A stretch of 64,000 bases of DNA. Source: Cyclobacterium sp. SYSU L10401 (lineage in GTDB: Bacteria; Bacteroidota; Bacteroidia; Cytophagales; Cyclobacteriaceae). Below the pieces are notes generated by a model that was not told the DNA's origin, made no database searches, and saw nothing but the letters and a program-made list of their open reading frames with translations. Positions 39,736-59,017 of this stretch are shown one piece after another. The first letter of the stretch is position 1. Each line of letters starts with the position of its first letter. A program made the position numbers and the translations under genes. The stretch spans positions 310,001 to 374,000 of the forward strand of contig NZ_WOFO01000003.1 in the NCBI RefSeq assembly GCF_010993705.1, given 5' to 3'.

Positions 39736-39761
39736 CTCCTGAAGGGTAAAACCTTCAGGAG
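39736..39761. repeat. Perfect 10-bp inverted repeat in the rplI-GSCFA gap
   Basis: CTCCTGAAGG (39736-39745) and CCTTCAGGAG (39752-39761) flank a six-base loop. There is no T-run, so it is not a standard terminator. It may be a protein-binding site or a structured RNA element. The rest of the 265-base gap before the GSCFA gene shows nothing else clear. Confidence 0.5.
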
Positions 39762-39935
39762 ATTATACATGTTGGGATATTTTATGGATATGATGATTCA
39801 AAAGCCTGGGTTTAGCTAATTTAATAAGTAGTTGGCTTTTTATTTCCTGTTCAGACGGCGATTGGAATTCTTTTCTTTATCAGCCGCTTTTCTTCCTCCC
39901 CGTCATTGATTAATTTGCTATTAATTAAAGCAACA

Positions 39936-40967
39936 ATGAAAAGTTTCAGAACTGAGTTTAAAATTCATCCCAGTCCGAAAAGTATTGATCATTCGCGGAA
40001 GCTGCTTACCATAGGGTCCTGCTTTTCTGAGGTGATGGGCGAAAAGTTAACCCACAATAAATTCAATGTTCTGGTCAATCCTTTCGGGATAATCTTTAAC
40101 CCCGTTTCAATTTTTGAATTGCTGTCCCTTTGCCTACAACAACAAAAACCCCAGGACGATTTATACCTGAACCGGCACCATAAGTATTATCATTTTCAAT
40201 TTCATTCCAGGGTCAATGCAGGTTCTAAAAAGGAACTGGAAGCGCTATTGCATGAAAAGCTTCAACAGGTAAATGATGGTATCGGAAACAGCAGTCATAT
40301 TCTGATCACGCTGGGAACGGCATTTGTTTTCAGGCATTTAGCAACCGGTAAAATTGTGGCCAACTGCCACAAACAACCGGAAAAGGAATTTAAGAAGGAA
40401 CTTCTAGGCTTAGACGATATGAAGCGGGCATTTGAAGGGTTTTATGAACGGCTGAAAGATCACAATCCCAAGGTTCAAATGGTACTCACAGTCAGCCCGG
40501 TGCGGCATGTTAAAGATGGAATACCGGAAAACCAGGTAAGCAAGGGTTTACTCAGGGTGTTTTGTGATCAGTTGGAAAAGCAATACCAGGACATTTATTA
40601 CTTCCCCGCCTATGAGCTTCAGATGGATGACCTCAGGGATTATAGGTTTTACAAAGATGACCTGATCCATCCCAATGCTACAGCTGAAAATTATATTTGG
40701 GAAAAATTTAAAAAGTCATTTTTTCAACCCGATACTTTAGACATATTGAACGCTGTAGATCAGGTTCAAAAAAACTTAAATCACAGGCCCTTTGAACCCT
40801 TTTCCGGAGGCCATTTTGATTTTTTAAATCAATTGCTTCAGAAGATATCACGTATGCCGTCCAATCTTGATTTCACAGAGGAGAAAAAACGTATTGTGGA
40901 GCAATTAAAACAAATTGAAGCTTACCAACAAAATGAAAAACCGAAACCAGGAGATGAAAGCAAATAA
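39936..40967 (+). CDS. GSCFA-domain protein
   Basis: This 343-residue protein contains the GSCFA domain: [16 protein letters not shown] at the N-terminus (giving the family its name), [33 protein letters not shown] and the late [18 protein letters not shown]. The Gly-Ser-Cys block and the D-x-x-H-P ending resemble SGNH-type hydrolases, but the activity is not established. ATG 39936 is chosen over TTG 39906, where the first residues would be unlike the family. Its last 14 bases overlap the next gene. Confidence 0.9.
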
Positions 40968-42972: not shown

Positions 42973-42991
42973 ACTGTTAAATCCTTTTGTT

Positions 42992-45508
42992 TTGGAAGAT
43001 CTTTTTGCTCATCAATATCCATCCGCTAGTTCAAAAAACCTGTATGCGGATATCATATTGCCCGTACCCATTCCCAAGTGGTTTACCTACAGCATTGGGG
43101 TAGACATACAGGATCAAATAGGTATTGGTTTCAGGGTAATGGTGCAGTTTGGCAAAAAAAAGATCTTGACAGGAATTGTCGCCAGGGTTCATCAAAAAGC
43201 CCCTGAAGTATATCAGGCAAAACCCATATTGGACCTGTTGGATGATTATCCGGTAGTTAATGCCTTACAAATTAAATTTTGGAGTTGGATGGCTTCGTAT
43301 TATTGTTGCCATATAGGGGAAGTGATGAATGCTGCCCTCCCCAGTGGGTTGAAACTTTCCACAGAAAGCAGGGTGCAGGTCCATCCTGATTTTGATTTGG
43401 ATGATCCTGGTTTTCCCATGGATGAGCGGGAATTGCTGTTATTGGACACGCTCAGTAAGCATGATGAAATGAATGTGGAACAGGTTGACCAGCTGCTGCC
43501 GGGAAAAACAAGCCATAAAATCATCAAAAGTTTACTGGCGAAGGGGGCCATTTTGGTGTATGAATCCGTTAAGGAAAAATATAGTCCCAAAACAGAACAC
43601 CGGATAAGATTAGCACCAAAATATGCAGCGCAGAAAAGCTCATTGGAGGCCTTGTTTGAAGCATTGAAAGGTAAGGAAAAACAGGAGGAAGTTTTACTCA
43701 AATACCTCCAGCAGGTTTCCGTTTTTCAACGACCCGAAGATAATGCGCAGGGTCTCCCCAAAAATGTTTTGACAGATCATGGCTGTTCGCCAAGTTCTAT
43801 TGACACCCTGGTTAAAAAGGGAGTTTTGGAATCATTCAAAGTACTTGTCAGTCGTTTCGAAACCCAGCCCGTGTCTGATAAAGAGATTGAACTTTCGGCT
43901 GTTCAGACCGAAGCCCTTCAAAGTATTCACCAGCAGTTTGAAGAGAAAAATACCGTATTGTTGCAGGGGATTACAGGATCAGGTAAGACGGAAATTTATG
44001 CGCAATTGATTAAGGATGTTCTCCAAAGTGGCTCCCAGGTTTTGTTGCTTTTACCCGAAATAGCTTTGACTACCCACCTGGTTTATCGGCTGCAAAAAAT
44101 ATTTGGCGATAAAATGGGTGTTTTTCATTCCAAGTACTCGGATAATGAAAGGGTTGAAGTATGGCAGGGCGTGCTGAAAGGAAAATACAATTTCATCATC
44201 GGTGTGAGGTCTTCTTTATTCCTTCCCTTTGACAGTTTGGGACTTGTCATTGTGGATGAGGAACATGAAAGTTCCTACAAGCAATTTGACCCTGCTCCCC
44301 GATTTCAGGCCAGAGATGCCGCCATCATGTTGTCCTGGATGCACCAGGCAAAGACCCTTTTAGGGACTGCCACGCCGGCCTTTGAGTCCTATTACAATGC
44401 CCAAAATGGTAAATATGGATTTGTAAAAATCGATAAGCGCTATGGGAATGCGGAGCTTCCCCACTTTTTTTTAGCTGATATGCTCAGTGACAAGAAGAAA
44501 AATCTATTGAAATTGGATTTTACCCGTTTATTGAGAGAGAAAATTCAGGATACACTGAATCGACAGGAACAAGTATTGATTTTTCAAAACAGGAGAGGGT
44601 ATGCGCCCTATATTTCCTGCGATGAATGCGGATGGATACCTGAATGCGAGCATTGCGACGTAAGCCTTACCTACCACCAATATCAGGAGGAGTTGAGGTG
44701 TCATTATTGCGGATTTAAAGAAAAAATCCCGGTATCCTGCCAGGCTTGCGGGAGCCAAAAGCTGACAACGGTGGGCACCGGCACCGAACGAATTGAAGAA
44801 AGTCTGGGCCTGTTGTTTCCTGAAGCAAGGATTGCCAGGATGGATTTGGATACCACCCGCAGCAAATATGGTTACCAAAGGATTTTGGAGGATTTTGGTG
44901 CAGGTAACGTGGATATCCTGGTAGGAACCCAAATGATTACCAAGGGACTGGACTTTGACAAAGTCTCTTTGGTGGGGATAGTGGATGCTGACCGCATACT
45001 TTTCTACCCGGATTTCAGGGCAGGAGAAAGGGCTTTCCAGCAAATCACCCAGGTGGCCGGTAGGGCCGGCCGGAGAGATAAAACCGGTGAGGTAATCATC
45101 CAAACCAGAAGACCGGATCAATTGATATTCAAGCAGATCATGTCCGGAAATTACAGTGATTTTTACCGGCAGGAGATGGGGGAGAGGAAGCAGTTTTTTT
45201 ATCCACCGTTTGTAAAAAACATCAAGGTCATCACCAAACACAAAGATTTCAAAACGGCTGAAAATGCCGCCAGAAACCTCAAAAATTTATTGACAGACAT
45301 TGAAGCAAAAAAGATCATATTGGGGCCTGAAAAATCCCTGATTGGAAAAATTAAAAACCTCTACCTGTTTGAAATATGGATCAAACTGGACAAGTCAGGA
45401 AATGTACAACAATTTTTCAAGCAACAACTCATGGATAGGATTGCGGAGCTTCAGGCGGATAAAAGGTTTCGTGCCGTGCGGTTTTTGATCGATGTGGATC
45501 CCTACTAA
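42992..45508 (+). CDS. priA: Primosomal protein N' (replication restart helicase)
   Basis: This 838-residue superfamily-2 helicase reloads the replisome at stalled forks. The N-terminal DNA-binding part (ADIILPVPIPKWFTYSIG) is followed by Walker A in LLQGITGSGKTEIY and the DEEH box in VIVDEEHESSYKQ. The zinc-binding cysteine cluster is SCDECGWIPECEHCD ... CHYCGFKE ... CQACG, and the late helicase motif is TQVAGRAGRRD. No in-frame ATG lies near the start, so TTG 42992 is the probable initiator. Confidence 0.97.
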   Translation: MEDLFAHQYPSASSKNLYADIILPVPIPKWFTYSIGVDIQDQIGIGFRVMVQFGKKKILTGIVARVHQKAPEVYQAKPILDLLDDYPVVNALQIKFWSWMASYYCCHIGEVMNAALPSGLKLSTESRVQVHPDFDLDDPGFPMDERELLLLDTLSKHDEMNVEQVDQLLPGKTSHKIIKSLLAKGAILVYESVKEKYSPKTEHRIRLAPKYAAQKSSLEALFEALKGKEKQEEVLLKYLQQVSVFQRPEDNAQGLPKNVLTDHGCSPSSIDTLVKKGVLESFKVLVSRFETQPVSDKEIELSAVQTEALQSIHQQFEEKNTVLLQGITGSGKTEIYAQLIKDVLQSGSQVLLLLPEIALTTHLVYRLQKIFGDKMGVFHSKYSDNERVEVWQGVLKGKYNFIIGVRSSLFLPFDSLGLVIVDEEHESSYKQFDPAPRFQARDAAIMLSWMHQAKTLLGTATPAFESYYNAQNGKYGFVKIDKRYGNAELPHFFLADMLSDKKKNLLKLDFTRLLREKIQDTLNRQEQVLIFQNRRGYAPYISCDECGWIPECEHCDVSLTYHQYQEELRCHYCGFKEKIPVSCQACGSQKLTTVGTGTERIEESLGLLFPEARIARMDLDTTRSKYGYQRILEDFGAGNVDILVGTQMITKGLDFDKVSLVGIVDADRILFYPDFRAGERAFQQITQVAGRAGRRDKTGEVIIQTRRPDQLIFKQIMSGNYSDFYRQEMGERKQFFYPPFVKNIKVITKHKDFKTAENAARNLKNLLTDIEAKKIILGPEKSLIGKIKNLYLFEIWIKLDKSGNVQQFFKQQLMDRIAELQADKRFRAVRFLIDVDPY

Positions 45509-45533
45509 ACCCAAACCATAGGATATCACCAAA

Positions 45534-46016
45534 TTATTCGTTGTCATTCCAAATATCATGGGTGGTTTTCCAGCTGCCATCTGCCTGCCTTTCCAGAATA
45601 TTTACATATTTGGAGCTGGAATTAAGGGTATCCCCGGTTGATTTTTCATACAAGGTGACCTTGGCAAAACCTCTTCCATAAGCCAGGTCTCCATCTACTT
45701 TAACCTCTTCATACCCGCTTTCCAGCCTGGTTTGGTAAGTGTCAAATATTTCCTGGTAATATGCCTCTACTGCCTCAGGCCCAATCTTTTTCGCTGCACC
45801 GGGAGCCATCAGAAAAGCCCCGTCGGTAAAATGCGCAGCTATGGCTGCTGCATCACCGGCATTGAAAGCTTCGGCCCGGGCATTACTCATGGCCTCTATG
45901 GCCCTGATGTCTTCTGCCTCAGTGCTATTTTCTGGTTGGAGGGGGAAGAATACAAAGATAGCGATAACGACCAGCACGCTAAGGACTATAAAGGGAAAGA
46001 AGGACTTCATAAGCAT
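45534..46016 (-). CDS. NTF2-like (SnoaL/DUF4440) membrane-anchored protein
   Basis: This 160-residue protein has an N-terminal membrane helix (about 5-24, FFPFIVLSVLVVIAIFVFF) and a DUF4440/SnoaL-type domain: IRAIEAMSNARAEAFNAGDA, AAHFTDGAFLMAPG, AVEAYYQEIFD and WKTTHDIWN. Such domains form a cone-shaped pocket and serve as isomerases, small-molecule binders or dimer domains. The substrate is unknown. It is convergent with priA, 25 bases away, and divergent from the lipid operon. Confidence 0.85.
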   Translation of the reverse strand: MLMKSFFPFIVLSVLVVIAIFVFFPLQPENSTEAEDIRAIEAMSNARAEAFNAGDAAAIAAHFTDGAFLMAPGAAKKIGPEAVEAYYQEIFDTYQTRLESGYEEVKVDGDLAYGRGFAKVTLYEKSTGDTLNSSSKYVNILERQADGSWKTTHDIWNDNE

Positions 46017-46163: not shown

Positions 46164-47177
46164 ATGAATCAGTATTTTGAGACCATAGAATTTGAAGCTT
46201 TGGATGGGTTTAAGTGTGATTTAAGACACCTGAAATCTGATAAGGCTACCAAAGGACCGGTCTTATTGGTTCATGGTGCCGGAGTAAGTAGCAACATTTT
46301 TAATCCACCCTCACAGAAAAATATCATCAACCAACTTGCGGAGCAGGGATATGATGTGTGGCTGGAAAACTGGAGGGGTAGCATACACCTGGAACCGAAC
46401 GAGTGGGACCTGGACCAGGTAGCACGCAATGACCATCCGGCTGCCGTGAAAAAAATTGTAGAAATCACCGGAGCCAAAGAAATAAAAGCCATCATCCATT
46501 GTCAGGGAAGTACCAGTTTTATGATATCAGCTGTAATGGGCCTGATTCCTGAAGTGAAACTGATTATCAGTAATGCAGTTTCCCTGCACCCGGTTGTACC
46601 CTTTTTCTCTAAATTCAAATTGAATGTATTGATGCCAGTTGTGAGCAGGTTTTTCAATTACCTGGACCCCCAATGGGGTCTCTATCCACCGGATTTTAAG
46701 TCAAGGATCATATTGAATCTGGTCAAGGCTACCCACTGGGAAAACGATACGAAAGTAGGTAAGATGGTCAGTTTCACCTATGGTTCCGGGTTTCCGGCCC
46801 TTTGGGAATTGGATAACCTGGATGAAAAAACCAAATCCTGGATTCAATATGAATTTGCCCATGTGCCGCTTTCTTTTTTCAGGCATATCAAAGAATGCAT
46901 TCAGCATGGTGCCTTAAAAAAGTTAAGAGATAATGGAACCGATTATGTATCGGATTCCCCAAAGACTGCAGCCAGATTTGTGCTGTTTGGGGGTAAAAAG
47001 AACAAATGTTTTTTACCCGAAAGTCAAGAGAAAACCTTTCATTATCTTGAACAGGTGAGACCGGGATTTCATAAACTATATCTCCTTGACGGGTATAGTC
47101 ATTTGGATGTATTCTTCGGTAAAAATGCACATGTAGATGTGTTTCCGAAAATGATCAGTGAATTGGAACAAGGTTAA
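46164..47177 (+). CDS. Alpha/beta hydrolase with Cys at the nucleophile position
   Basis: This 337-residue alpha/beta hydrolase resembles the lipase-like domain that in some bacteria accompanies GMC cholesterol-oxidase-like proteins. It has VLLVHGAGVSSNIF (oxyanion HG), VWLENWRGS and, at the nucleophile elbow, IIHCQGSTSF, which places Cys113 where lipases have the Ser of GHSQG. The acid and base are probably near LFGGKKNKCFLPES and DGYSHLDVFFG. No signal peptide was seen. It is the first gene of the operon ending with the GMC flavoprotein. Thiol esterase or acyl-transfer chemistry is possible. Confidence 0.85.
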   Translation: MNQYFETIEFEALDGFKCDLRHLKSDKATKGPVLLVHGAGVSSNIFNPPSQKNIINQLAEQGYDVWLENWRGSIHLEPNEWDLDQVARNDHPAAVKKIVEITGAKEIKAIIHCQGSTSFMISAVMGLIPEVKLIISNAVSLHPVVPFFSKFKLNVLMPVVSRFFNYLDPQWGLYPPDFKSRIILNLVKATHWENDTKVGKMVSFTYGSGFPALWELDNLDEKTKSWIQYEFAHVPLSFFRHIKECIQHGALKKLRDNGTDYVSDSPKTAARFVLFGGKKNKCFLPESQEKTFHYLEQVRPGFHKLYLLDGYSHLDVFFGKNAHVDVFPKMISELEQG

Positions 47178-47186
47178 ATTGAAGTT

Positions 47187-48071
47187 ATGCCTCCCAGAAG
47201 AATCAAGCGATATACCGGAAGATTTGCTCTCGTTGATGGCATCCCCTACCAAATGCCCGTCAGTTCTTCAGATTCCCCTGCGCTTATGGCAGGATTTTCC
47301 TGTGACTGGGAAAAAGCCAATGCCTTGCTTCCAGGAAATGAAATTCATGCCATGAAATTACCCAATGGGCGTGCTGCATTATTGATTACGGTAATCAACT
47401 ATTTGCATACCAGTATTGGCAAATACATAGAATACAGCATTGCCATAGCCTGTACCCATGGTTCAAAGCCTGCACCCAGGTTTTTGAATGCCTTATTGTT
47501 GGGCCATTATGGCACAGGACAGTATATACTGGATTTGCCGGTGAGTAGTGAAATATCGGTGAAAGGGGGAAAGGGGATTTGGGGTATGCCCAAGCACCAG
47601 GCCAACCTGGATTTCATTGAAACCTCCCAAACGGTAAGTAGCCAATATGAAAAGGATGGCAAATTTGCCTTTAGGATAGAAATAGCCAAGCCCAAATCTC
47701 CAACCATCAAGTTAAAAGTTGGCGCCACCAATTATTGCCGTTTCAGAAACATGCTGATGGCTTCCTATATTTACTTTGAAAGCAGGGCGGGAATCAATTT
47801 ATTTGGCAAAGCAAGGGGAAGCCTTTTTATTGGTGACCACCCCAATGTGGCTAAACTAAGAGATCTGGAAATCAATCCGGATCCATTTTTTACCACTTTT
47901 ATGCCAAAAACGAATGGCATTCTGGATGACCATTTTCAATGTTGGTTTATGACTTACGAGTCGGCTCCTCAAGAGATGCCTGAGGGACTGGAAACGGTTT
48001 ATCCCCTGGGCTATGGTGAGGAATGGCTGGCACCTCCAGCGTTTACTGATTACGAAAAATTCCGTATTTGA
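47187..48071 (+). CDS. Acetoacetate decarboxylase-family protein
   Basis: This 294-residue protein of the ADC superfamily starts 9 bases after the hydrolase. It shows the family segments VDGIPYQMPVSS, PGNEIHAMKLPNG and KGIWGMPKHQANL. The last aligns with the Schiff-base region of acetoacetate decarboxylase, where Lys115 is followed by Lys116. Here the first Lys is kept, but the second is His. That points to an aldolase/lyase-like or binding role instead of classic acetoacetate decarboxylation. It has no signal peptide. Confidence 0.83.
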   Translation: MPPRRIKRYTGRFALVDGIPYQMPVSSSDSPALMAGFSCDWEKANALLPGNEIHAMKLPNGRAALLITVINYLHTSIGKYIEYSIAIACTHGSKPAPRFLNALLLGHYGTGQYILDLPVSSEISVKGGKGIWGMPKHQANLDFIETSQTVSSQYEKDGKFAFRIEIAKPKSPTIKLKVGATNYCRFRNMLMASYIYFESRAGINLFGKARGSLFIGDHPNVAKLRDLEINPDPFFTTFMPKTNGILDDHFQCWFMTYESAPQEMPEGLETVYPLGYGEEWLAPPAFTDYEKFRI

Positions 48072-48093
48072 CCCTTAAACCTTTCAAAATGCC

Positions 48094-48600
48094 ATGAACC
48101 CGATAAAAAAGACATTAATCGACCTCAGTAATGCCTATATTTTTTTCTGTGCTTCCATGTACCTGGGCATGTTCTGGTCACTGCATTTTTTTTGGTTTCC
48201 CAATTACCCTAATACTTTAAACCTGGACAATTATTATGATGCCATCATTCCCCAGACGGATCTGGCAACCAATTTTTTCTTCATAACCATCCCCATTATG
48301 GCAGTGGCATTGGTAGTCATGTTGGTAACGGAGTGGAAAACAGGTTTGCGCTGGGTTCCTTTATCCTGGATTCCCGGGCTCCTGATACCTGTAATCGTCC
48401 AACAAAGGTATATCGAAGACGTAAACAATCAATTTAAGGCTGGTTTGCAGGATGAAGCAAGGCTTCAGGTCTTGCTGGAGGAGTGGATGTGGCTGAATGA
48501 TATAAGATGGATTATTTTAACCATCATGTGGGGAATCACCATGTACTTTTTTATCGCAAAAGCCAAACCAAAATATCAACAACTAAACCATGAAAAATAA
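48094..48600 (+). CDS. Four-helix membrane protein, unrecognised
   Basis: This 168-residue protein has three to four hydrophobic segments: about 14-33 (YIFFCASMYLGMFWSLHFFW), 62-82 (FFFITIPIMAVALVVMLVT), 92-108 and 138-158 (WIILTIMWGITMYFF). It has no known motif, but the outline recalls the small anthrone-oxygenase-like (DUF1772) proteins; this is only a loose resemblance. It begins 22 bases after the ADC-family gene, and its end overlaps the next membrane-protein gene by 11 bases, so it belongs to this operon. Confidence 0.7.
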   Translation: MNPIKKTLIDLSNAYIFFCASMYLGMFWSLHFFWFPNYPNTLNLDNYYDAIIPQTDLATNFFFITIPIMAVALVVMLVTEWKTGLRWVPLSWIPGLLIPVIVQQRYIEDVNNQFKAGLQDEARLQVLLEEWMWLNDIRWIILTIMWGITMYFFIAKAKPKYQQLNHEK

Positions 48601-49006
48601 CCAAATGATTTTCGGTATCTCTCCGCGATATGTGGAGTTGCTGGTGGTTTTAATTGCCTTCATTACCCTGATTTCGGGCTTGGTTCAACTCATAACCCCA
48701 TCTACGGTTCTGAACCTGATTGGCAAATCAGCCAATACCGAAGAGGCCATTCACTTCTTTGCGATAGTGGGTATGTTCATGGCCCTTTTTGGGGGGATGG
48801 TTGTGCATGCGGTTTACAGTGCGGTTACTAATAAACAGGTGATGCTCTGGACGGCATTTCAGAAGTTTGGTGCTTTTTTGGCAGTTTCTATAGGCGTGTT
48901 CAAAGGATTGTTTTCCTTATTGGCCTTGTCAGTAGCCCTCTTTGATTTGTTTTCCGGAATTGTTTTCTTGATGTATTTAAAAGTATTGAGCTCATGGGAA
49001 AATTGA
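48590..49006 (+). CDS. Small four-helix membrane protein, unrecognised
   Basis: This 138-residue protein has four hydrophobic segments (about 13-35, 50-72, 82-100 and 105-130). It has no charged catalytic-looking motif. I do not recognise the family; similar short four-helix proteins sit beside lipid- or quinone-related genes in many bacteria. ATG 48590 lies inside the previous gene, implying coupled translation. It may form a membrane unit with its neighbour. Confidence 0.7.
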   Translation: MKNNQMIFGISPRYVELLVVLIAFITLISGLVQLITPSTVLNLIGKSANTEEAIHFFAIVGMFMALFGGMVVHAVYSAVTNKQVMLWTAFQKFGAFLAVSIGVFKGLFSLLALSVALFDLFSGIVFLMYLKVLSSWEN

Positions 49007-49079
49007 GGGCCAAAATTTTTCTTAGGGAACCTGTTGGCTACGGCAATAGACCGTTAATTTATGCTTATATCCTACCTTC

Positions 49080-50522
49080 ATGCTGACCCATTTAGTCCAT
49101 AACGGACCTAAGAATCACCGATCGCTGATACTGGCAGGTGGAGGCATAAGGGTGGCTTATCAGGCAGGAATCCTTAAGGCCATGGAAGAGGAGGGATTGA
49201 CCTTTGACCATGTGGATGGTACCTCAGGGGGGATTTTCAATGCTGCCATGCTGGCATCAGGTCTTTCCGTAGACCAAATGATTGAAAAATGGAGGACGTT
49301 ACCTATCAGACATTTTGCCTCCTTAGCCAGGTTTCGGGATTATTTAAGGCCCTGGAAATTAAAGGGCCTGGGGGATGCCGACAATATTCAACAAAAAGTT
49401 TTGCCGCACTTTGGAGTGCAGTTGGACACCATTAAGGGTCTGGGTTTACCCATTACTTTTTCCTTGTGTAATTTTTCTAATAAAACCATTCAGGCCGTTT
49501 CTGCGAAAGAAGTTGATGAAAAACACCTATTAGCCGGCGTTTCCCTTCCTATACTCATGCCTGCCCTTAAAATAGGTAAAGACTGGTTCATAGATGCTGT
49601 TTGGATCAAGGATGCCAACCTGATGGAGGCAGTAAGGATGGGGGCGGAAGAAATCTGGCTGGCTTGGGGGATAGGCAACTACCCAACCTATTTTTCAGGT
49701 GCATTGCACCAATATGTCCACTCCATAGAAATGAGTGCCAATGGAGCCCTTTGGGAAGAATTTGAGCAAATCCAACTGATAAACAGGGCCATAGAAAGAG
49801 GGGATGCTGTATTTGGGCAACGGCAACCCATAAAAGTGTTCCTTATCAAACCCCATTTTCCCCTTCCCCTGGATCCGGAGCTTTTTTTAGAAACAATAAG
49901 CAACCGTGATTTGATCAACATGGGCTATCAGGATGCAAAAAACTATTTTTTAAAAGTATCAGATGCTGGTGAGAAACTGGATATCCTTGCAACCCAAACC
50001 AGGGATACGGGTGATTACCTGTGTTTCCGTCTTCGTTTTACAGGTGAGCTGGAATTCAAGAAGAAGTTGGATATAGTAAGATATTTTGTCTTTTTACGGT
50101 TTTCTTTTCTAGGTGATCAGCAGCAGTTGGAGGTATTTTCCAGTTTGTATTTAGGTCATTACCAAAAAGAGTTTTTAGCTGGGATACATGAGATTAAGGT
50201 AAAATACTTGGGCTCACTGACTCAGCTTGAAACAATTACCACCCTGACCATTGAGGGAAAAGAATGGCTGTTGATTGCCAAAATGAGTTGCAAAGGCCCC
50301 TGGTATTGGTTGGCGGGACTGGATTTTAAAGTTTCAGAAATTACTTTGCGACCCAAAAATGAAGCAGATTCTGAAATGGTACTGGAAGGCAGCCTCCAGC
50401 AATCCTTTGTGTCCAGGCTCCGTTGTACCTGGAAGGCTTTGGCTAAAAAGCAAAATGGAGGCAGGGGGGGCATGAGATTAAAATTTAACCTGATAAAAAA
50501 AATGATGCAACATGAAGTTTGA
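49080..50522 (+). CDS. Patatin-like phospholipase
   Basis: This 480-residue protein has the patatin fold. It shows the oxyanion loop ILAGGGIRVAYQAGILKA and the nucleophile motif DGTSGGIFNAAML (Gly-Thr-Ser-Gly-Gly). The aspartate of the Ser-Asp dyad lies in FIDAVWIKDANL, where the usual D-G-G/A is D-A-V. A second, unrelated C-terminal part (about 310-480) follows, perhaps a lipid- or membrane-binding domain. It should release fatty acids from lipids. It is followed by the phosphoesterase gene with an 11-base overlap. Confidence 0.88.
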   Translation: MLTHLVHNGPKNHRSLILAGGGIRVAYQAGILKAMEEEGLTFDHVDGTSGGIFNAAMLASGLSVDQMIEKWRTLPIRHFASLARFRDYLRPWKLKGLGDADNIQQKVLPHFGVQLDTIKGLGLPITFSLCNFSNKTIQAVSAKEVDEKHLLAGVSLPILMPALKIGKDWFIDAVWIKDANLMEAVRMGAEEIWLAWGIGNYPTYFSGALHQYVHSIEMSANGALWEEFEQIQLINRAIERGDAVFGQRQPIKVFLIKPHFPLPLDPELFLETISNRDLINMGYQDAKNYFLKVSDAGEKLDILATQTRDTGDYLCFRLRFTGELEFKKKLDIVRYFVFLRFSFLGDQQQLEVFSSLYLGHYQKEFLAGIHEIKVKYLGSLTQLETITTLTIEGKEWLLIAKMSCKGPWYWLAGLDFKVSEITLRPKNEADSEMVLEGSLQQSFVSRLRCTWKALAKKQNGGRGGMRLKFNLIKKMMQHEV

Positions 50523-52248
50523 AAAAAAGCCCATGGTCAATTGGTACGATCCAAAGCAATTGGCTTTCACGGCAGTTAAGACAGTTTTGTCATCTGTATT
50601 TGGGAATTTTGCCGACAGGAGGGAGCTGCAAGCTGCTTTGGATAAAGAAACCAAATTTTACGATTATTCTCACAAGGAGGAGTTGTGGGTAGACTTTATT
50701 TCTGACCTGGGAGATGGGTTTAACCCTACGTATACCCTGGCTGAACTCCTTTCCAGGGATGCCCTTACTTTGAGGGGAAAACGGTTAAAGCGAGGGGATG
50801 TATTGATTATGGGTGGAGATGAAGTTTATCCTACCCCTGAAAAAATTGAATACGATAACCGCCTGAGAGGCCCCTATATAGCTGCATTTCCCAAAATAGA
50901 AAATGATCCAGACCGTCCCGATGTTTTTGCTGTTCCGGGTAACCATGACTGGTACGACGGATTGACCAATTTTTTGAGGTTATTTACCCAAAAAAGGTCG
51001 TTTGGAAATTGGCAAACCCGGCAGAGCAGAAGTTATTTTGCTTTAAAATTACCCCATGATTATTGGATTATTGCCATTGACGTACAATTGAATGCAGACA
51101 TTGATTATCCTCAGATCTGTTACTTTAGAGAAATTGCCCAAAAACATTTAAATGAGAGGAGCAAAATCATATTATGCACTTCTGAGCCATCCTGGGTTTA
51201 CAAATCCTTTGACGCCAAAAATGAATCTTTTGACCGCCTGGAATTCTTTATCCAATGGGTCCTTTTTGGAAAGGGTGAAAAAAACTATGAAGAAAAGAAT
51301 AAAACCATCCAGATTAAGGCGGTGTTGACGGGGGATTTGCACCACTACGCCCGCTATGAATCAAAGGATAGCAAGGGTGAACCTTGTCAATTGATTACCG
51401 CAGGAGGAGGGGGAGCCTTCATGCATCCAACCCATACCCTGAAGCAGGAAATTTCTGGAATTGATGGGAAAACCCATGAATTGAAAAAGGTTTTTCCTTC
51501 AAAAAGCACCTCGGTAAATTTGAGTATGCTAAATTTACTTTTCCCTTATTTCAGCCTTACCATGCTTTCTTTCTTCGGCTTTTTTCATGTTTTCACTTCC
51601 TGGGTTTTACAAACCAAGGTTTACTCGGGAGCCTCGCTAATGGAAAAGATGAGTGAATTGAGTCTCTTTGATGGACAAGCTGCTGATTTTTTCTATTTGA
51701 TCATACAAGGCATAAGTCATCACCCGGGTGCATTGTTCTTGAATATTTTGCTCTTTGCAGGCATAGTGATATTTACGGACGTTAAGTCCGGAGGTAAAAA
51801 CTGGAATTACCTGGCAGGGCTGATCCACGGGATGCTTCATTTGGTCAATTTTTATTTTCTACTTTGGCTTTTTTCCTATATTAACCTTAACCAATTGGGT
51901 CTTGGGATAAATGAACCCCGGCAAGTAATCCTATTTACTGCTGAAATGGTCCTTGCGGGAGGGATTATAAGTGCGGTTTTGTTTGGGTTTTACCTGACTT
52001 TCAGTGTAGTGATATTAAAAAACCATATTACAGAAGCCTCTTCTTCCTACCGCTGGGAGGGATATAAGAATTTCCTCCGGTTTTCAGTGAATAGCGAAGG
52101 AATCACCATTTTTCCGGTAGGCGTAAAAAAGGTAGTAAGCAATTGGGAAAATGTAGGAACAGCTGAAAAGCCCCGCTTTGAAGGAGGGGATATAAATTAT
52201 GATTTGATTGAGGACCCTATATACATCAAAAATGAAAAAGTTAGCTAA
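50512..52248 (+). CDS. Membrane-bound metallophosphoesterase (calcineurin-like)
   Basis: This 578-residue protein has an N-terminal calcineurin-like phosphoesterase domain: FISDLGDGFNPT, IMGGDEVYPTPEKIEY, VPGNHDWYDGL and VLTGDLHHYARYE. About five hydrophobic helices follow in the C-terminal half (from about residue 345), so it is an integral membrane protein. It could remove phosphate from a lipid product. The gene overlaps the patatin gene by 11 bases and the GMC oxidoreductase gene by 17 bases, so all three are translated together. Confidence 0.88.
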   Translation: MKFEKKPMVNWYDPKQLAFTAVKTVLSSVFGNFADRRELQAALDKETKFYDYSHKEELWVDFISDLGDGFNPTYTLAELLSRDALTLRGKRLKRGDVLIMGGDEVYPTPEKIEYDNRLRGPYIAAFPKIENDPDRPDVFAVPGNHDWYDGLTNFLRLFTQKRSFGNWQTRQSRSYFALKLPHDYWIIAIDVQLNADIDYPQICYFREIAQKHLNERSKIILCTSEPSWVYKSFDAKNESFDRLEFFIQWVLFGKGEKNYEEKNKTIQIKAVLTGDLHHYARYESKDSKGEPCQLITAGGGGAFMHPTHTLKQEISGIDGKTHELKKVFPSKSTSVNLSMLNLLFPYFSLTMLSFFGFFHVFTSWVLQTKVYSGASLMEKMSELSLFDGQAADFFYLIIQGISHHPGALFLNILLFAGIVIFTDVKSGGKNWNYLAGLIHGMLHLVNFYFLLWLFSYINLNQLGLGINEPRQVILFTAEMVLAGGIISAVLFGFYLTFSVVILKNHITEASSSYRWEGYKNFLRFSVNSEGITIFPVGVKKVVSNWENVGTAEKPRFEGGDINYDLIEDPIYIKNEKVS

Positions 52249-54577
52249 ACCTTTGACTTCCATTAAACCCTATTATGACTATGTGGTAATAGGTTCTGGG
52301 TATGGCGGTAGCATTGCCGCTTCGAGGATGTCCCGGTGTGGGCAGTCTGTCTGCCTCCTGGAAAAAGGAAAGGAATTTTTACCGGGTGAATTTCCACAAA
52401 CATTGTTTCAGGCATCGAAAGAGATGAATTTTGTAGGTGGAAAGACTGTCAATCTGGAAAAGAACGGCCTGTACGAATTTACCATGGGAAGTGGTATCAA
52501 TGTGTTCAAAGGTTGTGGCTTGGGAGGTACTTCCCTTGTGAATGCCAACGTTTCTATTGAACCTGAACCCAGGGTAATGGAAGACCCCGCCTGGCCCAAT
52601 GCACTGAGAACAGACATGCCTTCTTTTGAATTGGGGATAAAACGGGCCTGGGCAATGTTAAAGCCCAATCCCTATCCTGAGAATAAAAATGGATATCCGA
52701 AATTGCAAAAAACGGAAGCCATGCGTAAATCTGCAGCCCACATGTCTGCCCCCTTTCGCCTATTGGATATCAATGTAAATTTCGAGGATCAGACCAACCA
52801 TGTTGGGATCAGGCAGGCCAAATGTACCAATTGTGGAGATTGCGTTACCGGTTGCAATATTGGGGCGAAAAATACCACCGCCATGAATTATTTACCGGAT
52901 GCCTATAATCATGGAGCAGAAATTTTTACTGAAATCAATGTCCGGTACATAAAGAAAAAGGGAGCCTTCTGGCAAGTATATTATCATCCCATTGGTATCG
53001 GGAGAGATCATTTCGATGCCCCTTTGTTGTTTGTACAGGCCAAAAATGTAATACTGGGAGCTGGTTCCCTCGGTTCCACTGAAATTCTCCTCAGATCCGC
53101 AAAAATGGGACTGGAGGTTTCTAAGAAATTAGGCCAAAGATTTACCGGAAATGGCGACGTGTTGGGATTTGGGTATAACAATGAGCACCGCATCAACGGC
53201 ATTGGCCTCGGGAAAAAAGGTACGGAAAGCATTGCCGACGTGGGTCCCTGCATTACCAGCGTCATAGATTTGAGGGAAAGGGAGGATTTGGAAGCTGGCA
53301 TGACACTGGAGGAAGGGACCATACCTGGTCCCATCAGGGGAATCATGCCAAAAGCACTTATTGCTTTTTCCAGACTTGCCGGTAAAGACACAGATCGGGG
53401 CATCATGGATTACCTGAAGGAAAAATGGCGGGAAATCCGAAGCTTGTTTTTGGGTCCCTTTCATGGAGCGCTTGCCAGGACACAAGTTTACCTGGTGATG
53501 ACCCATGATGATGGAAATGGGGTCCTGAAAATGGATGAAACGGACAAATTAAACATCAGTTGGCAGGGAGTAGGGAAGCAAGAGATTTTTAAAAAGGTAA
53601 ATGGTGAAATGTACAGTGCCACTGAAGCGCTTGGCGGGACAAAGATTCCCAATCCCACCTGGAATGAGTTGATGAACTATGATTTGGTAACGGTGCATCC
53701 CCTGGGTGGATGTGGTATGGCAGACCATGCAGCCTTGGGGGTGGTAGACCACAAAGGACAGGTTTTTGCCGGACAGGAGGGAGAAGAACTGCATGAAGGA
53801 TTGTATGTCATGGATGGGGCGGTCATTCCCCGGCCGGTGGGCACCAATCCCTTGCTCACCATAAGTGCCCTGGCGGAAAGGAGCTGCCAGTTGATTGCTG
53901 ATGAAAAAGGATATCAGCTGGATGATGGCTTTTCAAATGTGCCAGAAGGTCCTGACAACCCTCCTTCGCTGGAAACAGGCGTACAATTTACCGAATCAAT
54001 GAAAGGTTTCTTTGGTATGGGGGAAACGGAAGACTTTGAATCCGGATTTTCCAGGGGTAAGAAAGATAATTCTCCCTTCGAATTTACCCTGACCATTCAG
54101 ACAGAAGACATTCAGGAATTTGTACAGCAGGAGAATCATCCGGGCAAAATGATTGGGACCATGCTGGCACCTGCCCTTTCTGAAAAACCAATGAGTGCCT
54201 ATAATGGTGTTTTCAATCTTTTTATCATTGATAAATCCGATGACTCCAGAAAGAAAATGAATTATACTGCTGAATTGTTGAGTGAAGAAGGGAAAAGCTA
54301 TTACTTTGAAGGATTTAAGGATGTATTTAATGACCATGTGGTGGATGCCTGGAAGGATACTACAACGCTGTTTATCTCAGTATATGAAGGAAAGAACTCC
54401 CAAGGACCATTGTTAGGAAAAGGAAAATTAGTGATCAAAGTGGCTGATTTATTGCGGCAATTGCGAACCGTAAAAGCCATCCATCCCAAAAGCAAAGGTG
54501 ATGGAATCTCGGCCATAGCTACCTTCGGTAAATTCTTTGCTGGGAATGTTTATGAAACCTACTTTAGTTTTAAGTAA
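52232..54577 (+). CDS. GMC oxidoreductase, cholesterol oxidase-like, with Cys cluster
   Basis: This 781-residue flavoprotein has the FAD-binding motif VVIGSGYGGSIAASRM (Gly21-Gly26). Its GMC features include GLGGTSLVNANVS, HPLGGCGMADHAALG and TNPLLTISALAERS. Between residues 198 and 208 a cysteine cluster (CTNCGDCVTGC) resembles a [4Fe-4S] ligand set. A similar motif occurs in mycobacterial cholesterol-oxidase-like proteins. A C-terminal domain of about 150 residues (from about 630) lies beyond the GMC core. ATG 52232 is used; TTG 52208 is farther upstream inside the phosphoesterase gene. The substrate is probably a sterol or long-chain alcohol. Confidence 0.88.
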   Translation: MKKLAKPLTSIKPYYDYVVIGSGYGGSIAASRMSRCGQSVCLLEKGKEFLPGEFPQTLFQASKEMNFVGGKTVNLEKNGLYEFTMGSGINVFKGCGLGGTSLVNANVSIEPEPRVMEDPAWPNALRTDMPSFELGIKRAWAMLKPNPYPENKNGYPKLQKTEAMRKSAAHMSAPFRLLDINVNFEDQTNHVGIRQAKCTNCGDCVTGCNIGAKNTTAMNYLPDAYNHGAEIFTEINVRYIKKKGAFWQVYYHPIGIGRDHFDAPLLFVQAKNVILGAGSLGSTEILLRSAKMGLEVSKKLGQRFTGNGDVLGFGYNNEHRINGIGLGKKGTESIADVGPCITSVIDLREREDLEAGMTLEEGTIPGPIRGIMPKALIAFSRLAGKDTDRGIMDYLKEKWREIRSLFLGPFHGALARTQVYLVMTHDDGNGVLKMDETDKLNISWQGVGKQEIFKKVNGEMYSATEALGGTKIPNPTWNELMNYDLVTVHPLGGCGMADHAALGVVDHKGQVFAGQEGEELHEGLYVMDGAVIPRPVGTNPLLTISALAERSCQLIADEKGYQLDDGFSNVPEGPDNPPSLETGVQFTESMKGFFGMGETEDFESGFSRGKKDNSPFEFTLTIQTEDIQEFVQQENHPGKMIGTMLAPALSEKPMSAYNGVFNLFIIDKSDDSRKKMNYTAELLSEEGKSYYFEGFKDVFNDHVVDAWKDTTTLFISVYEGKNSQGPLLGKGKLVIKVADLLRQLRTVKAIHPKSKGDGISAIATFGKFFAGNVYETYFSFK

Positions 54578-54591: not shown

Positions 54592-56691
54592 TTATTGAAA
54601 TTTCTCCGTCAGGCTGGATTTACTTTCCCATTTTTCCGCAAACCAGGACTTGGTTTTGGTTAAAAAATCTCTTCCATGATAGGTTTTGTGGGAGGAATAG
54701 AGCGTACTGAGGTACTGTTTCAGCATTTCTTTCTGATCCTGGCTTAGATTTGAGGAGGAGCTGGGATTGTTCCGTAAAGCAGGGAAATCATTGGTGGATT
54801 TAAAAATTACCATGCTATCCAGGGATAGCTGTGACCCTTCGGGCAATGCATCATTGGCAAATATATCCGGTAGGGTAACCTGATCCAAAGGAACATTGAT
54901 TTTAAAAAGTCCCTCGTTTTTCCTGGTATCTAAAAGCCAAAACCCTTCCGGATCAGCAGACAGACTTTGAACAGTATCCATCTGCCCAATGGTTTCTATG
55001 GTGTTTTTCTGAGAGATCCATTGCTCAAATTTTACCGGATTGTACCTCAGCGGACTCATGAGTTGGTACAAGCTGTCCCTTAAGTCTGGCTGAGGCTGAA
55101 AATACTCAAAAACCACTCCTTCCCGATGAAAAGAAACATTTTTGATCCGATTGAGAGGTTTTTCCATACTTTTCCATGCTTCCAGGGAAGTGGAATCTAC
55201 TGAAAATGAGCCTATGGGTATGTTCTCCTTAAACAACTGGTATAAACCTTCGCTATATAATGCCTGAAACCACAGGCTGTCATTTTTTGACCAAAGTTGT
55301 ATGGATTGGTTATCTATTAACTCAGGGCGGGCATGTTTTTTTATGTCCCTCCACTCCGTTGAATCAATCAATGAATCCCTGGTGATCTTGTACCAAAAGG
55401 TAGAATAAAAATTATAGGGCAAGGCATGGGCTTCAAACTCCAATTGCTGTACCTGCGCTATCATTTGTATAAGGGTATTCCATTTATTTTCGGCCAGGTT
55501 CCTGTTGTTGTACCGGTCCTCGGACGCAGCCCTCAGGGAGTCGATGGAAGTCAGCTCCTGTTTAATCGTTTTTTCAAATTGTACGGCCTCCTCGTAACTG
55601 ATGTATCGGTCCGCGTTAATTTCTTTGGTTAATTGAATGATTTTGTCATGGTGGAAAATGACCTTTTTTATTTCTTTACCGGTCAGCAATGAAAATAGAC
55701 GACTTAGGGTTTCAGCCCCATTTTTTTCAGCCTGCTCAATTATCCCGGCATTGCGGGCATTGGTTTTTAGCTTTTGAACAGCATAAATTTTTACTTTTCT
55801 ACTGTCTTTAAAATCAACCTTGCCATTGTAGGTCAGGATATCAAACCCGGGGATTCCCTTTTCCGGAATAAACCAGGGATTGATATCTGAATTGAGGACC
55901 TGTGGTGCCAGTCCAAAAAAATGGAGTTCGCCCATATCCTCATTGAAATGATACATGCTTTGATCCAAATCGTTAAAATCAAACCCTGCCTTGACGGTTC
56001 CCCGACCAATGATGGCCAGCTTTTTCCTGGACTCCCTTCGTGATAAGTTTGATAGTCTGTTTTCAAAAAAATCAGTGACAAATCCATCAGGTTGCCACCA
56101 ATCGTTTTCAGGCCTTTCGTACCATCCCATGAGGACTTGTCTGGCTTGCTTATCGGAAATGGAGTTGCCGGAACGGATGATCCCAGCTTCCAGGCCGATG
56201 AAATGAAACACCTCATCATACAAGGCCATTTGACTGGTATTGGCCCAATCTTCCAGGAAATAGAGTTTTTCAAGTATATTTTTCTGATTGACTGGATCGA
56301 TAAGTAACCTTTTTCTTTCCCTGCGATTGAGACTATTGTCTTCATTTCCAATGGATAGCCTGTTTTCAGCTGAAAGTGTGTGAAAGTTTCTCAGGTTTTC
56401 CAGAGCAGTTTTTATATCCTGATACATGTATTCTGCCTGGGATCTGATATCTTCTTCCTCCAGCAGATTGATTTGGGCCTCATCTATGGATGCCAGCACT
56501 TCCCCATAGTACTCCGCGGTAATCATTTCACCAACTTCACGGATTTCAGAAACAATGTTTGCTGTAGGCTGTAGTTCAGGTTTTCCTCCGAAAATATGCA
56601 GTGGGTTCCACCAAAAAAGCAACACAACCAATGCTCCCACCAAAAGGATTTCCAAAATAAACCGGCCGCTATGGAGGATTTGCCTAATCAT
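54592..56691 (-). CDS. Large membrane protein with split DUF4230-like core
   Basis: This 699-residue protein has a single N-terminal helix (about 12-28). Residues 43-67 read like the start of a DUF4230 domain (IVSEIREVGEMITAEYYGE). The matching second half begins at about 223 (KKLAIIGRGTVKAGFDFNDL) and reaches about 345 (FSLLTGKEIKKV). An insertion of about 155 residues separates them, and a ~350-residue C-terminal part of unknown fold follows. Four bases overlap the smaller DUF4230 gene upstream, so it is the last gene of this minus-strand operon. The function is unknown. Confidence 0.7.
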   Translation of the reverse strand: MIRQILHSGRFILEILLVGALVVLLFWWNPLHIFGGKPELQPTANIVSEIREVGEMITAEYYGEVLASIDEAQINLLEEEDIRSQAEYMYQDIKTALENLRNFHTLSAENRLSIGNEDNSLNRRERKRLLIDPVNQKNILEKLYFLEDWANTSQMALYDEVFHFIGLEAGIIRSGNSISDKQARQVLMGWYERPENDWWQPDGFVTDFFENRLSNLSRRESRKKLAIIGRGTVKAGFDFNDLDQSMYHFNEDMGELHFFGLAPQVLNSDINPWFIPEKGIPGFDILTYNGKVDFKDSRKVKIYAVQKLKTNARNAGIIEQAEKNGAETLSRLFSLLTGKEIKKVIFHHDKIIQLTKEINADRYISYEEAVQFEKTIKQELTSIDSLRAASEDRYNNRNLAENKWNTLIQMIAQVQQLEFEAHALPYNFYSTFWYKITRDSLIDSTEWRDIKKHARPELIDNQSIQLWSKNDSLWFQALYSEGLYQLFKENIPIGSFSVDSTSLEAWKSMEKPLNRIKNVSFHREGVVFEYFQPQPDLRDSLYQLMSPLRYNPVKFEQWISQKNTIETIGQMDTVQSLSADPEGFWLLDTRKNEGLFKINVPLDQVTLPDIFANDALPEGSQLSLDSMVIFKSTNDFPALRNNPSSSSNLSQDQKEMLKQYLSTLYSSHKTYHGRDFLTKTKSWFAEKWESKSSLTEKFQ

Positions 56692-57305
56692 GGGTTCATC
56701 AGGTTATCGGGACTGTTTACTTGACGGATTAAAAGGGAATCATTTTCAAATTGGATATAGATTTCTTCAAACTCAAAACTTTTAAGAACCATTTGAATGA
56801 GTTCGCGGGCATGGTTTTGACTGGTGCTTACCAATCCCATATAAGGCAGGTTATCCCTGATATCCATTTCAGCCATTCTAAAGAAGGTTTCCTGATCTTC
56901 CAGGTTGATTTCATTAAGAAACCGCTCAGGGTTGGAAATCAAAGTGTCTTCAACAAAGTCTTCGGGTGGATAGGAAAAATTAAGCACTTCAATGGGAGGT
57001 AATTTCAAGGTTATTTTCTTACCCTGTATAAGGATGTCCTCTTCGCTGATCTTATCCAGGTTAATGCCGGTTTTTATCTTTGCCCTGGAATAGGCCAGGA
57101 AGGAGGCTTCATTAAGCGGAATGAATAAGATGTTTTTCGTTTTTTTTCCAAAAACAACTTTATCCACCACGAATTCGGAAACCACCAAATCACTTGCCTG
57201 TTGAATTTTCCCTATGACCAGGCCTCTTTCATCCTTTTCACAAGCAGTAAAAGAAAGGATTAGAAGGCAGCCAATTGCTATAACTTTCCATTTCAAGTCA
57301 ACCAT
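56688..57305 (-). CDS. DUF4230-domain lipoprotein
   Basis: This 205-residue protein has a lipoprotein signal with lipobox LILSFTAC and a single DUF4230 domain (about 30-185): LVVSEFVVDKVVFGKK, FLAYSRAKIKTGINLDK, then KKITLKLPPIEVLNF. DUF4230 proteins are widespread, and their function is unknown. It overlaps the muramidase gene before it by 13 bases and the split DUF4230 gene after it by 4. Having two DUF4230 proteins next to each other suggests a heteromeric envelope complex. Confidence 0.85.
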   Translation of the reverse strand: MVDLKWKVIAIGCLLILSFTACEKDERGLVIGKIQQASDLVVSEFVVDKVVFGKKTKNILFIPLNEASFLAYSRAKIKTGINLDKISEEDILIQGKKITLKLPPIEVLNFSYPPEDFVEDTLISNPERFLNEINLEDQETFFRMAEMDIRDNLPYMGLVSTSQNHARELIQMVLKSFEFEEIYIQFENDSLLIRQVNSPDNLMNP

Positions 57306-59017
57306 GTGCCTTCTTTTTTGAATTTTTCGTAGTGATTTTTCATTTTGATATGGTATTGATTGACTTTATATCCGCTCCCGTTGTATCCATATGCGAAAGA
57401 CTCCCAGTCGTAATTGTCCTGCACTTCTTCGGATATATAATCTATCAATGCCTTTCCCCGGACTTTCTTGGATTTAATGAACTCCAGAAAATCCAAAAAA
57501 TGAAAATATTCTGATTCATGTTGGCGTTCCTCAAATTCAGCCGGACTTTTGTACTTTCTACCCTTGATGTGATGTTCCAGGTTTTCTCCCAGAATCTGAA
57601 AAAGGCCCCAGGAAGTAGCATAAATCGCTGCTTTGGGATCAATATTCCTGGCTTCATTCAGGCGGTCATATTCACCGGCACCTACCCGGTAATGCTTTCT
57701 CGTCCACTTTTTATAAATAATGTGTTCTTTTCCCTGGCTCAAGGTTTTGGGATCTTTGCCGAATTTTTCCAGCCAATACCAAAACTTATGCCCTTCAAAG
57801 AGGATTTTCGCCCTGCCATCATGAAGGTGACCCCTTCCGGCTGATTCTACGGTTACGATGGCCTTGATTACTGGCAGGCTGATTTTGATTTTATCCCGCT
57901 GCTCCAATTCATCCAAAGCAAGCCGGATATCCATATCACTTAAAATTTTACTGTTGACATTGTCTTTGATTTGCACGTATTCCTCCCTATACATCAAATC
58001 TTCCTGCTTATTATCAAATGAGGTGGATAAAGATATCCGTTGGTCAGTCAATTCACTTTTGGATGTTTCCTCCTTTTGCTCAAAGCCTGCATCCTCCATT
58101 GAAAAAAGACTATTGTCCATATCCAAACTACTTAATGGGTGGGCTGGTGCATCGCTTTTGGTAGTAGCAGTAGTACGTGGAGATTTGCTTTCCTCCCCTT
58201 CATTTTCTTCAGGACGATCTCTTGGCACCCACCTGTTTTGCAAGTATTTGAGTGATTTATCCCCAAAATAAAAGGCAATCATCATTAGAAAAGCTGTTTC
58301 AAAGAATTCAAATTGCTGACTCAGCAAGGCGGCATCCACTCCCGTATATTGGGTTCCAAAGCTTACGATCAGTAATGCCATGCCGCCCATTAACAAAGTA
58401 AATGCGATCATTCCCCGCACCGTTCCGGGAGGAAGCCCAAAGGTCTGGCTCCGATAGGGATTGTGATCAGGCATGGACATTTCAGAAGCCTTTACAGGCA
58501 AACCCTGACTGTACCGGTCCTTTGCATCGTATATCCGCTGCCAATCCTGGTCTGTCAGTCCATAATTGATGTTGTAATGGTAAACAGACCACATAAAATA
58601 AATCAGGAATAAAGCGATCCATACAACAGAGGTGGCCAAGCCCACTGCCTGGAAAAGATTATCATACTCCACATAGACGAAAAAGGCTCCCAGGATACCA
58701 AAAATCACTAAAACGGAGGATAATATGACGGTACCTTTAAAAAAGAAAGTATGGTACGGGTTGAAATTTGGATTTCTGTCCTTTGTTTTTGGACCAAAAT
58801 ACCTGGCCAATAGGCCATAAATAAATATTAATGCAGTCACAATTACCAATCCCGAACCCAGTAATTGATTGGTTGTTTCCATACCAGGGACAATAAATAG
58901 GAGTACTGCCAACATGATAAGTAGTATTGACCCAATATGGATGTACAAATATTTTCTTTCTGAAATACCTTTGTTTTTTTCCAGGGGACCCTTATTGTTT
59001 TCTTTATCCGTTTCCAT
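57293..59017 (-). CDS. Membrane-anchored N-acetylmuramidase (PF11860/DUF3380 type)
   Basis: This 574-residue protein has about six membrane helices in the first ~260 residues (for example LLIMLAVLLFIVPG and GMIAFTLLMGGMALLIV). A charged linker (about 265-380) leads to a C-terminal N-acetylmuramidase domain (about 380-565). Glu391 in AIVTVESAGRGHL is the likely catalytic residue, followed by RAKILFEGHKFWYWL and ATSWGLFQILGEN. This domain is best known from phage endolysins, but here it is tied to the membrane. The gene starts 32 bases after the DUF5675 gene. Confidence 0.88.
   Translation of the reverse strand: METDKENNKGPLEKNKGISERKYLYIHIGSILLIMLAVLLFIVPGMETTNQLLGSGLVIVTALIFIYGLLARYFGPKTKDRNPNFNPYHTFFFKGTVILSSVLVIFGILGAFFVYVEYDNLFQAVGLATSVVWIALFLIYFMWSVYHYNINYGLTDQDWQRIYDAKDRYSQGLPVKASEMSMPDHNPYRSQTFGLPPGTVRGMIAFTLLMGGMALLIVSFGTQYTGVDAALLSQQFEFFETAFLMMIAFYFGDKSLKYLQNRWVPRDRPEENEGEESKSPRTTATTKSDAPAHPLSSLDMDNSLFSMEDAGFEQKEETSKSELTDQRISLSTSFDNKQEDLMYREEYVQIKDNVNSKILSDMDIRLALDELEQRDKIKISLPVIKAIVTVESAGRGHLHDGRAKILFEGHKFWYWLEKFGKDPKTLSQGKEHIIYKKWTRKHYRVGAGEYDRLNEARNIDPKAAIYATSWGLFQILGENLEHHIKGRKYKSPAEFEERQHESEYFHFLDFLEFIKSKKVRGKALIDYISEEVQDNYDWESFAYGYNGSGYKVNQYHIKMKNHYEKFKKEGTWLT

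Follow-up and report, generated by a model that had tools for sequence, protein, structure and literature searches.

The stretch of DNA analysed here (the window) comprises 64,000 nucleotides of Cyclobacterium sp. SYSU L10401 (contig NZ_WOFO01000003.1, positions 310,001 to 374,000 of the forward strand) and carries seven open reading frames (ORFs), designated A–G, that follow one another on the + strand and together span positions 46164–54577 (Table 1). Adjacent ORFs either overlap (C/D, 11 bases; E/F, 11 bases; F/G, 17 bases) or are separated by intergenic gaps of 9 (A–B), 22 (B–C), and 73 bases (D–E). An original prediction, made from the sequence without database searches, had described these genes as a lipid/sterol operon read as a unit; the ORF coordinates confirmed the seven-gene set and its overlaps, and synteny across relatives bore out the idea that the genes act together. 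A scan of the window for promoters and terminators returned fewer sites than were found in shuffled sequences and was uninformative. For G, the ORF tool places the start at a TTG at 52208, and the 781-aa length given here is from the ATG at 52232.

Table 1. Positions in the window of the seven genes and of the C-terminal domain of G (aa, amino acids; PHA, polyhydroxyalkanoate).
Feature	Position	Strand	Description
A	46164-47177	+	337 aa; predicted alpha/beta hydrolase, Cys113 nucleophile; acid-lipase/PHA-synthase-like
B	47187-48071	+	294 aa; acetoacetate-decarboxylase-family protein; PF06314
C	48094-48600	+	168 aa; small membrane protein, predicted to be distantly anthrone-oxygenase-like
D	48590-49006	+	138 aa; small membrane protein by hydropathy, no family
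E	49080-50522	+	480 aa; patatin-like phospholipase; PF01734
F	50512-52248	+	578 aa; calcineurin-like phosphoesterase domain, then hydrophobic segments; non-canonical metal site
G	52232-54577	+	781 aa from ATG; GMC oxidoreductase with Cys4 motif
G C-terminal domain	53930-54577	+	about residues 571-781; unnamed domain

The A–G genes form a real and sharply bounded unit. All ORFs of the window of at least 150 aa were compared (E ≤ 1e-15) with stretches of 14 relatives from outside the genus, a comparison for which D is too short. Genes A, B, and G were matched in all 14 relatives and C, E, and F in 13, and the six upstream ORFs of the window (36540–46016) recurred in none of them, placing a sharp edge on the upstream side. 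The counts of B, F, and the G domain in these loci are non-independent because the loci were chosen for carrying B, F, or the domain; the flank counts are independent. Downstream, a pair of DUF4230 genes convergent to G (54592–57305, − strand; next gene, 57293–59017) recurred in six of the 14 relatives, and the two genes beyond it in two and one. In one relative (L078), the DUF4230 genes immediately precede A and share its strand, and they may be an extra partner of the cluster within the family. A small SnoaL/DUF4440-like gene (45534–46016, − strand), divergent from A, was present in only part of the genus.

Among the 12 Cyclobacterium genomes drawn (loci read: the window; L025–L031, L034, and L035; L082 and L083), all retained the order A-B-C-D-E-F-G and a full-length G, the other 11 copies of which were 76–88% identical to that of the window. 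The four named loci closest to G, as returned by one contig scan in which no others were found, belong to Cyclobacterium sp. Bin_11, C. plantarum, C. salsum, and C. roseum. G also occurs in two further genera of the family, at 66% and 57% identity, and some match to it was obtained in 25 of 39 genomes, the remainder of the matches being weak GMC paralogues or genome G024, where a related three-gene set consists of a GMC gene, a domain-bearing patatin, and F (A and B are both missing from the 18 kilobases [kb] read). B was the most cluster-specific marker. Within the order it was detected in 12 of 390 genomes, from 9 of 129 genera; it was also detected in 2 of 128, 3 of 114, and 1 of 201 genomes of the orders to which G302, G216, and G159 belong, respectively, and in 1 of 72,556 plasmid records, from Arthrobacter. 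Of 395 genomes drawn once from the phylum, 6 contained F and 5 contained the domain that ends G. Outside the Bacteroidota, the search for the cluster covered plasmid records, with surroundings read for 10 of 27 that had a GMC match, 5 of 9 with an F match, 10 of 15 with an A match, and the single one with a B match. The distribution of the cluster is real but patchy, encompassing scattered members of two phyla, and the neighbourhood is conserved beyond the strain, a point on which the original prediction had staked itself. No relative of G or B was found on viral contigs. A single relative of F was, on an IMG/VR contig (L084, 7920–9629), where a neighbouring ORF resembles a site-specific recombinase by eye only.

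The surroundings of B were read in all 29 B-bearing records, namely the Arthrobacter plasmid and 28 Bacteroidota genomes (12 Cyclobacterium; G012, G023, G159, G216, G302, G443, G480, G592, G615, G656, G684, G701, G745, G790, G882, and G898). A adjoins B in every record, and G lies within the cluster in 28 of the 29 (the contig without it is G898), truncated by the contig end in G443 and split into two broken ORFs in G882. As the G882 contig ends soon past the start of B, the remaining genes were judged in 28 records, where F was present in 26 (not G216 or G898), E and D in 27 each (neither in G012), and C in 26 (not G012 or G443). A further small gene, which encodes a membrane protein of the DUF4345 family and is not part of the Cyclobacterium clusters, accompanied the set in 11 of the 28, one of these (G443) being a 68-aa piece. 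Most other members of the family have the order A-B-C-D-(DUF4345)-E-F-G, with F-G-A-B-C-(DUF4345)-D-E in G302 and G790, F-G-A-B-C-D-E in G480, and G-F-A-B-C-D-E on the Arthrobacter plasmid, which carries all seven genes. The set is thereby stable across relatives in shuffled order, and A–E and F–G behave as two modules. Across 13 loci (12 for E), pairwise identities were correlated between genes (F–G, 0.94; A–F, 0.91; A–G, 0.88; B–G, 0.82; B–F, 0.81; A–B, 0.80; values not controlled for shared ancestry), with E correlated to the other genes at 0.62–0.80 (not controlled for species relatedness).

G exceeded the Pfam cut-offs for both halves of a GMC oxidoreductase (PF00732, GMC_oxred_N, 53.0 bits, cut-off 23; PF05199, GMC_oxred_C, 44.9 bits, cut-off 24.6). 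Four cysteines (Cys198, Cys201, Cys204, and Cys208) in the arrangement CxxCxxCxxxC (residues 198–208), along with His489 and Asn539, which we take to be the catalytic residues, are invariant in 13 of 13 sequences. Cysteines spaced in this way are characteristic of ferredoxin-type clusters, and two Fer4 models matched G weakly, under their cut-offs. The HPLGGC and NPLLTI segments align with the active-site His and Asn segments of a solved cholesterol oxidase. The C-terminal domain, for which no Pfam match under E 0.1 was obtained in any of 12 members, also occurs on patatins, as a stand-alone protein, or between a GMC enzyme and a hydrolase (profile search); in three loci (L023, L111, and L118) the patatin bears the domain and the GMC enzyme is without it. 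The profile used to find the domain was built without the C-terminal region of the patatin from Arthrobacter and did not find that region. A profile search for solved relatives of the domain returned no credible one; fold families that failed to appear in the structure searches are not taken as excluded.

On plasmids, a relative of G, the C-terminal domain, and a relative of A were found in one chain of 1134–1251 aa. This GMC–domain–hydrolase arrangement occurs in Leptospira, Persicobacter, Rhizobium, Azospirillum, Bernardetia, Variovorax, and the Bacteroidota genome G129, in agreement with the earlier statement that the two enzymes are fused in some bacteria. A relative of F is the next gene after the fusion in Azospirillum and G129, adjoins the GMC gene in Arthrobacter, and precedes a domain-less GMC gene in Cupriavidus; in Pseudonocardia the domain is encoded by its own gene directly after the GMC gene, with a divergent relative of A alongside. 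In Leptospira borgpetersenii (plasmid lbp2), the fusion is followed by a second GMC ORF (472 aa; L041, 9105–10523) that the incomplete plasmid gene table does not list. In Ensifer sp. PDNC004 (L044, 8809–14535), a 1908-aa chain consists of GMC_oxred_N/C, Abhydrolase_1, and a PhoD-like phosphatase; judged by its predicted domains, it ties oxidase, hydrolase, and phosphatase together, PhoD being of another family than F. These arrangements bear on an explanation by mobile or selfish clustering, under which the genes would travel jointly and act in unrelated processes. The patchy distribution, the plasmid-borne Arthrobacter copy, and the separable modules are what such clustering would leave, but it is at odds with the fusions between the A and G families, the chain of GMC, hydrolase, and phosphatase, the common domain, and the fact that all 12 Cyclobacterium genomes drawn have kept the genes together, and we regard it as very improbable.

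A exceeded the cut-off for Abhydrolase_1 (Pfam; 34.7 bits, cut-off 25.8), and in a PDB profile search it matched gastric and lysosomal acid lipases (3.4e-11 for lysosomal acid lipase/cholesteryl ester hydrolase) and PHA synthase. Cys113 lies in H-C-Q-G and is accompanied by Asn280 and His313; all 18 aligned sequences, fused or not, share the H-C-x-G motif, the acid-position Asn, and the His, which upholds the cysteine nucleophile ascribed to this gene by the original prediction. A belongs to a family of predicted Cys-nucleophile hydrolases that elsewhere is fused to the family of G via the unnamed domain. PHA synthases use a Cys nucleophile, and a role of the cluster in PHA turnover was considered, with A as synthase or depolymerase and the patatin and the acetoacetate-decarboxylase-like protein handling hydroxybutyrate. 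The PHA synthase matches of A that suggest this are weak (27 bits to TIGR01838, PHA_synth_I, against a cut-off of 622.65), and PhaC_N was found in none of 18 cluster-positive genomes, with the Caulobacter control over the cut-off; the idea was rejected as extremely improbable. On a Rhodococcus pyridinivorans plasmid (L054, 7665–11029), a relative of A lies beside a type I polyketide synthase and a thioester reductase that partially matches the C-terminal domain of G (21.7 bits, E 1.2e-5; one record scanned).

The assignment of B to the acetoacetate decarboxylase family (ADC, PF06314) proved sound (51.9 bits, cut-off 29.8). Lys136 in W-G-x-P-K, presumably the Schiff-base lysine, and Glu82 in G-x-Y-x-E lie in columns that are kept in all 17 rows of an alignment of 8 B sequences and 9 other ADC relatives; 5 of 14 relatives (L088, L090, L093, L094, and L101) were left out, as they were not found by the B profile. 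That profile returned no credible solved relative. Neither C nor D had a Pfam match at E 0.01. For C, the sequence of the window stayed below the cut-off for PF08592 (E 0.074; 13.7 bits, cut-off 27.3), and 8 of 8 members of its family match this model at E ≤ 1 (best, 3.7e-6), which makes C a candidate distant relative of anthrone oxygenases. D has four hydrophobic segments and no consistent Pfam match.

The patatin and the membrane phosphoesterase of the original prediction were both recovered over their Pfam cut-offs. E scored 70.5 bits to Patatin (PF01734; cut-off 27.7) and carries GGGIR, G-T-S-G-G, and Asp172, with these motif residues unchanged in all 8 sequences aligned; they agree with GGGxR, GxSxG, and the dyad Asp, which we assume to be the catalytic motifs and dyad of a patatin. 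Homology between the C-terminal part of E and the domain of G was not supported (hhalign probability, 0.3 percent). A patatin might also serve as the effector of an antiphage defence operon, and E does match three PADLOC phospholipase effector models (21–24 bits, over residues 11–73 at most). Its scores of 23.4 (NF053870) and 18.4 bits (NF041079) miss NCBIfam cut-offs of 400 and 200, PADLOC has no match among the other six genes, and the partner genes are metabolic, so that defence was rejected and is scarcely credible here. F scored 27.6 bits to Metallophos (PF00149; cut-off 21.5), a domain followed by hydrophobic segments; all 16 sequences aligned retain Asp61, Asp65, Asp103, Asn144, His145, and His277. 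The F profile found no credible solved relative, and its structure model was not used (mean predicted local distance difference test [pLDDT], 39.8). Relatives of F were also read in two genomes (L059, 10084–11862; L060, 8941–10731) where the GMC gene is not nearby, the former lying downstream of RuvB, a DNA glycosylase, an ABC ATPase, and an unnamed 643-aa protein.

The sterol part of the original label was not sustained. G scored 158.4 bits to the cholesterol oxidase equivalog NF058674, against a cut-off of 850, and neither hopene cyclase nor the C-terminal domain of KshA was found over its cut-off in any of 34 genomes, 17 of them cluster-positive, negatives that are weak because none of 14 control genomes was over the cut-off either. 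Five sub-threshold matches to hopene cyclase were noted, one of them in a cluster-positive genome (G002). The substrate is thus probably not a home-made sterol or hopanoid; sterol or hopanoid made by the cell and degradation of the sterol ring were both rejected on these negatives. A related possibility is the use of external sterols or steryl esters, with A or E cleaving the ester, G oxidising the 3-hydroxyl, and B acting later. It would account for cholesterol oxidase being nearest to G and for the match of A to cholesteryl ester hydrolase, but it is improbable given the shortfall of G against the equivalog, the missing KshA domain, an aligned cholesterol oxidase that has no Cys4 motif, and the want of any obvious place for the phosphoesterase.

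Our preferred reading, to which we give somewhat less than an even chance, is that A–G constitute one membrane-associated enzyme set processing a lipid-like substrate with ester and phosphoester groups. F would remove a phosphate or cleave a phosphoester at the membrane, and E and A (the latter possibly as an acyltransferase) would remove or move an acyl group. G would then convert the freed alcohol into a ketone or aldehyde, its Cys4 centre passing electrons to a carrier and not straight to oxygen, and B would form a Schiff base between its lysine and the carbonyl product, followed by decarboxylation or by the making or breaking of a C–C bond. The small membrane proteins C and D, like the DUF4345 protein that relatives encode, may anchor the set in the membrane or have a redox role, and the extra domain, borne in relatives by G, the patatin, or both, may hold or present a greasy substrate. 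What the data establish directly is the inventory of genes, their joint conservation, the fusions, and the retained residues. The order of reactions in the original prediction is plausible, though order and direction, like the substrate class, the catalytic roles, and the roles of the domain, C, and D, are what we infer.

Several observations weigh against this reading, in which the class of substrate is itself deduced. The set is incomplete in three genomes: G216 has the order G-A-B-C-D-E and no F in the 20 kb read, G898 has A-B-C-D-E alone, with G and F not on the contig, and G012 has A-B-F-G, a cluster without C, D, and E. Relatives of F without a nearby GMC gene occur in Mesorhizobium, R. 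phaseoli, G307, and G342. The canonical metal motifs of calcineurin-like enzymes are D-x-H, GD, GNH, H, and GHxH, and F lacks the full set: across 16 sequences it keeps GD and GNHD and has a GDxH-like motif 5, with no His in motif 1 or 4, and as these histidines are missing its activity is uncertain. The structure model of the domain, with eight strands, is of low confidence (mean pLDDT 63.5 for the best of five, 35–42 for the other four), and this low-confidence model, for which a calycin- or avidin-like beta-barrel was considered, had no significant Foldseek match.

The main rival has the biosynthetic direction, with A an acyltransferase and the cluster building a specialised lipid or polyketide-like product that G and B would tailor. 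The Cys nucleophile that A would share with PHA synthases, the Rhodococcus relative of A beside a polyketide synthase and a partly domain-matching thioester reductase, and a patchy distribution typical of specialised metabolism all speak for it. Since carrier protein, ligase, and synthase are all missing from A–G, and patatins, like phosphoesterases, usually act in degradation, we consider it unlikely, if worth serious attention.

The broader possibility, put forward tentatively and with appreciable doubt, is that the cluster represents an undescribed membrane lipid pathway that has spread horizontally. Its Cys-hydrolase, GMC dehydrogenase with an iron–sulfur-type Cys4 centre, membrane phosphoesterase, patatin, and Schiff-base enzyme would operate as a single complex, kept together by an unnamed, barrel-like domain that is exchanged between oxidase and patatin, and would form or degrade a lipid so far not known from bacteria. 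No description of the gene set A–G was found in the literature searched (search results only), and the combination appears to be undescribed there; named relatives exist for all families except D and the domain of G. The extra domain and the Cys4 motif of G, the DUF4345 gene of relatives, and the family of C go beyond the original prediction. Should the lipid-processing interpretation hold, a whole route common to scattered Bacteroidota and to one or more actinobacteria would have gone unnoticed because each gene bears a generic name. The A–G genes provide a defined gene set and B a defined marker for tracking it, the unnamed domain ties two lipid enzyme families together, and a GMC family with Cys4 alongside a Cys-hydrolase family offers directly testable chemistry.

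Compared with the nearest known systems, G shares its GMC fold and the aligned HPLGGC and NP..TI segments with cholesterol oxidase (NF058674; PDB 3cnj and 1b4v), but differs in its Cys4 motif, absent from the aligned enzyme, and in an additional domain of 210 aa, and no sterol context was found. A has the alpha/beta hydrolase fold in common with the acid lipases and PHA synthase, its nearest solved structures by profile, and its nucleophile region aligns with theirs; unlike the acid lipases, it has a Cys in place of the lipase nucleophile and an Asn at the acid position, and it belongs to a GMC-linked family of its own. B passes the family score of acetoacetate decarboxylases and has the Lys and Glu motifs in common with them, but stands apart from other members as a subfamily of its own, strongly conserved and about 295 aa long, beside A in 29 of 29 records. 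The GMC–domain–hydrolase fusions (Leptospira, 1134 aa; Azospirillum, about 1140 aa), annotated just as ‘alpha/beta fold hydrolase’ or ‘GMC oxidoreductase’, unite the same three parts as A and G in one chain and, unlike the cluster of the window, have none of B–E alongside in the stretches read.

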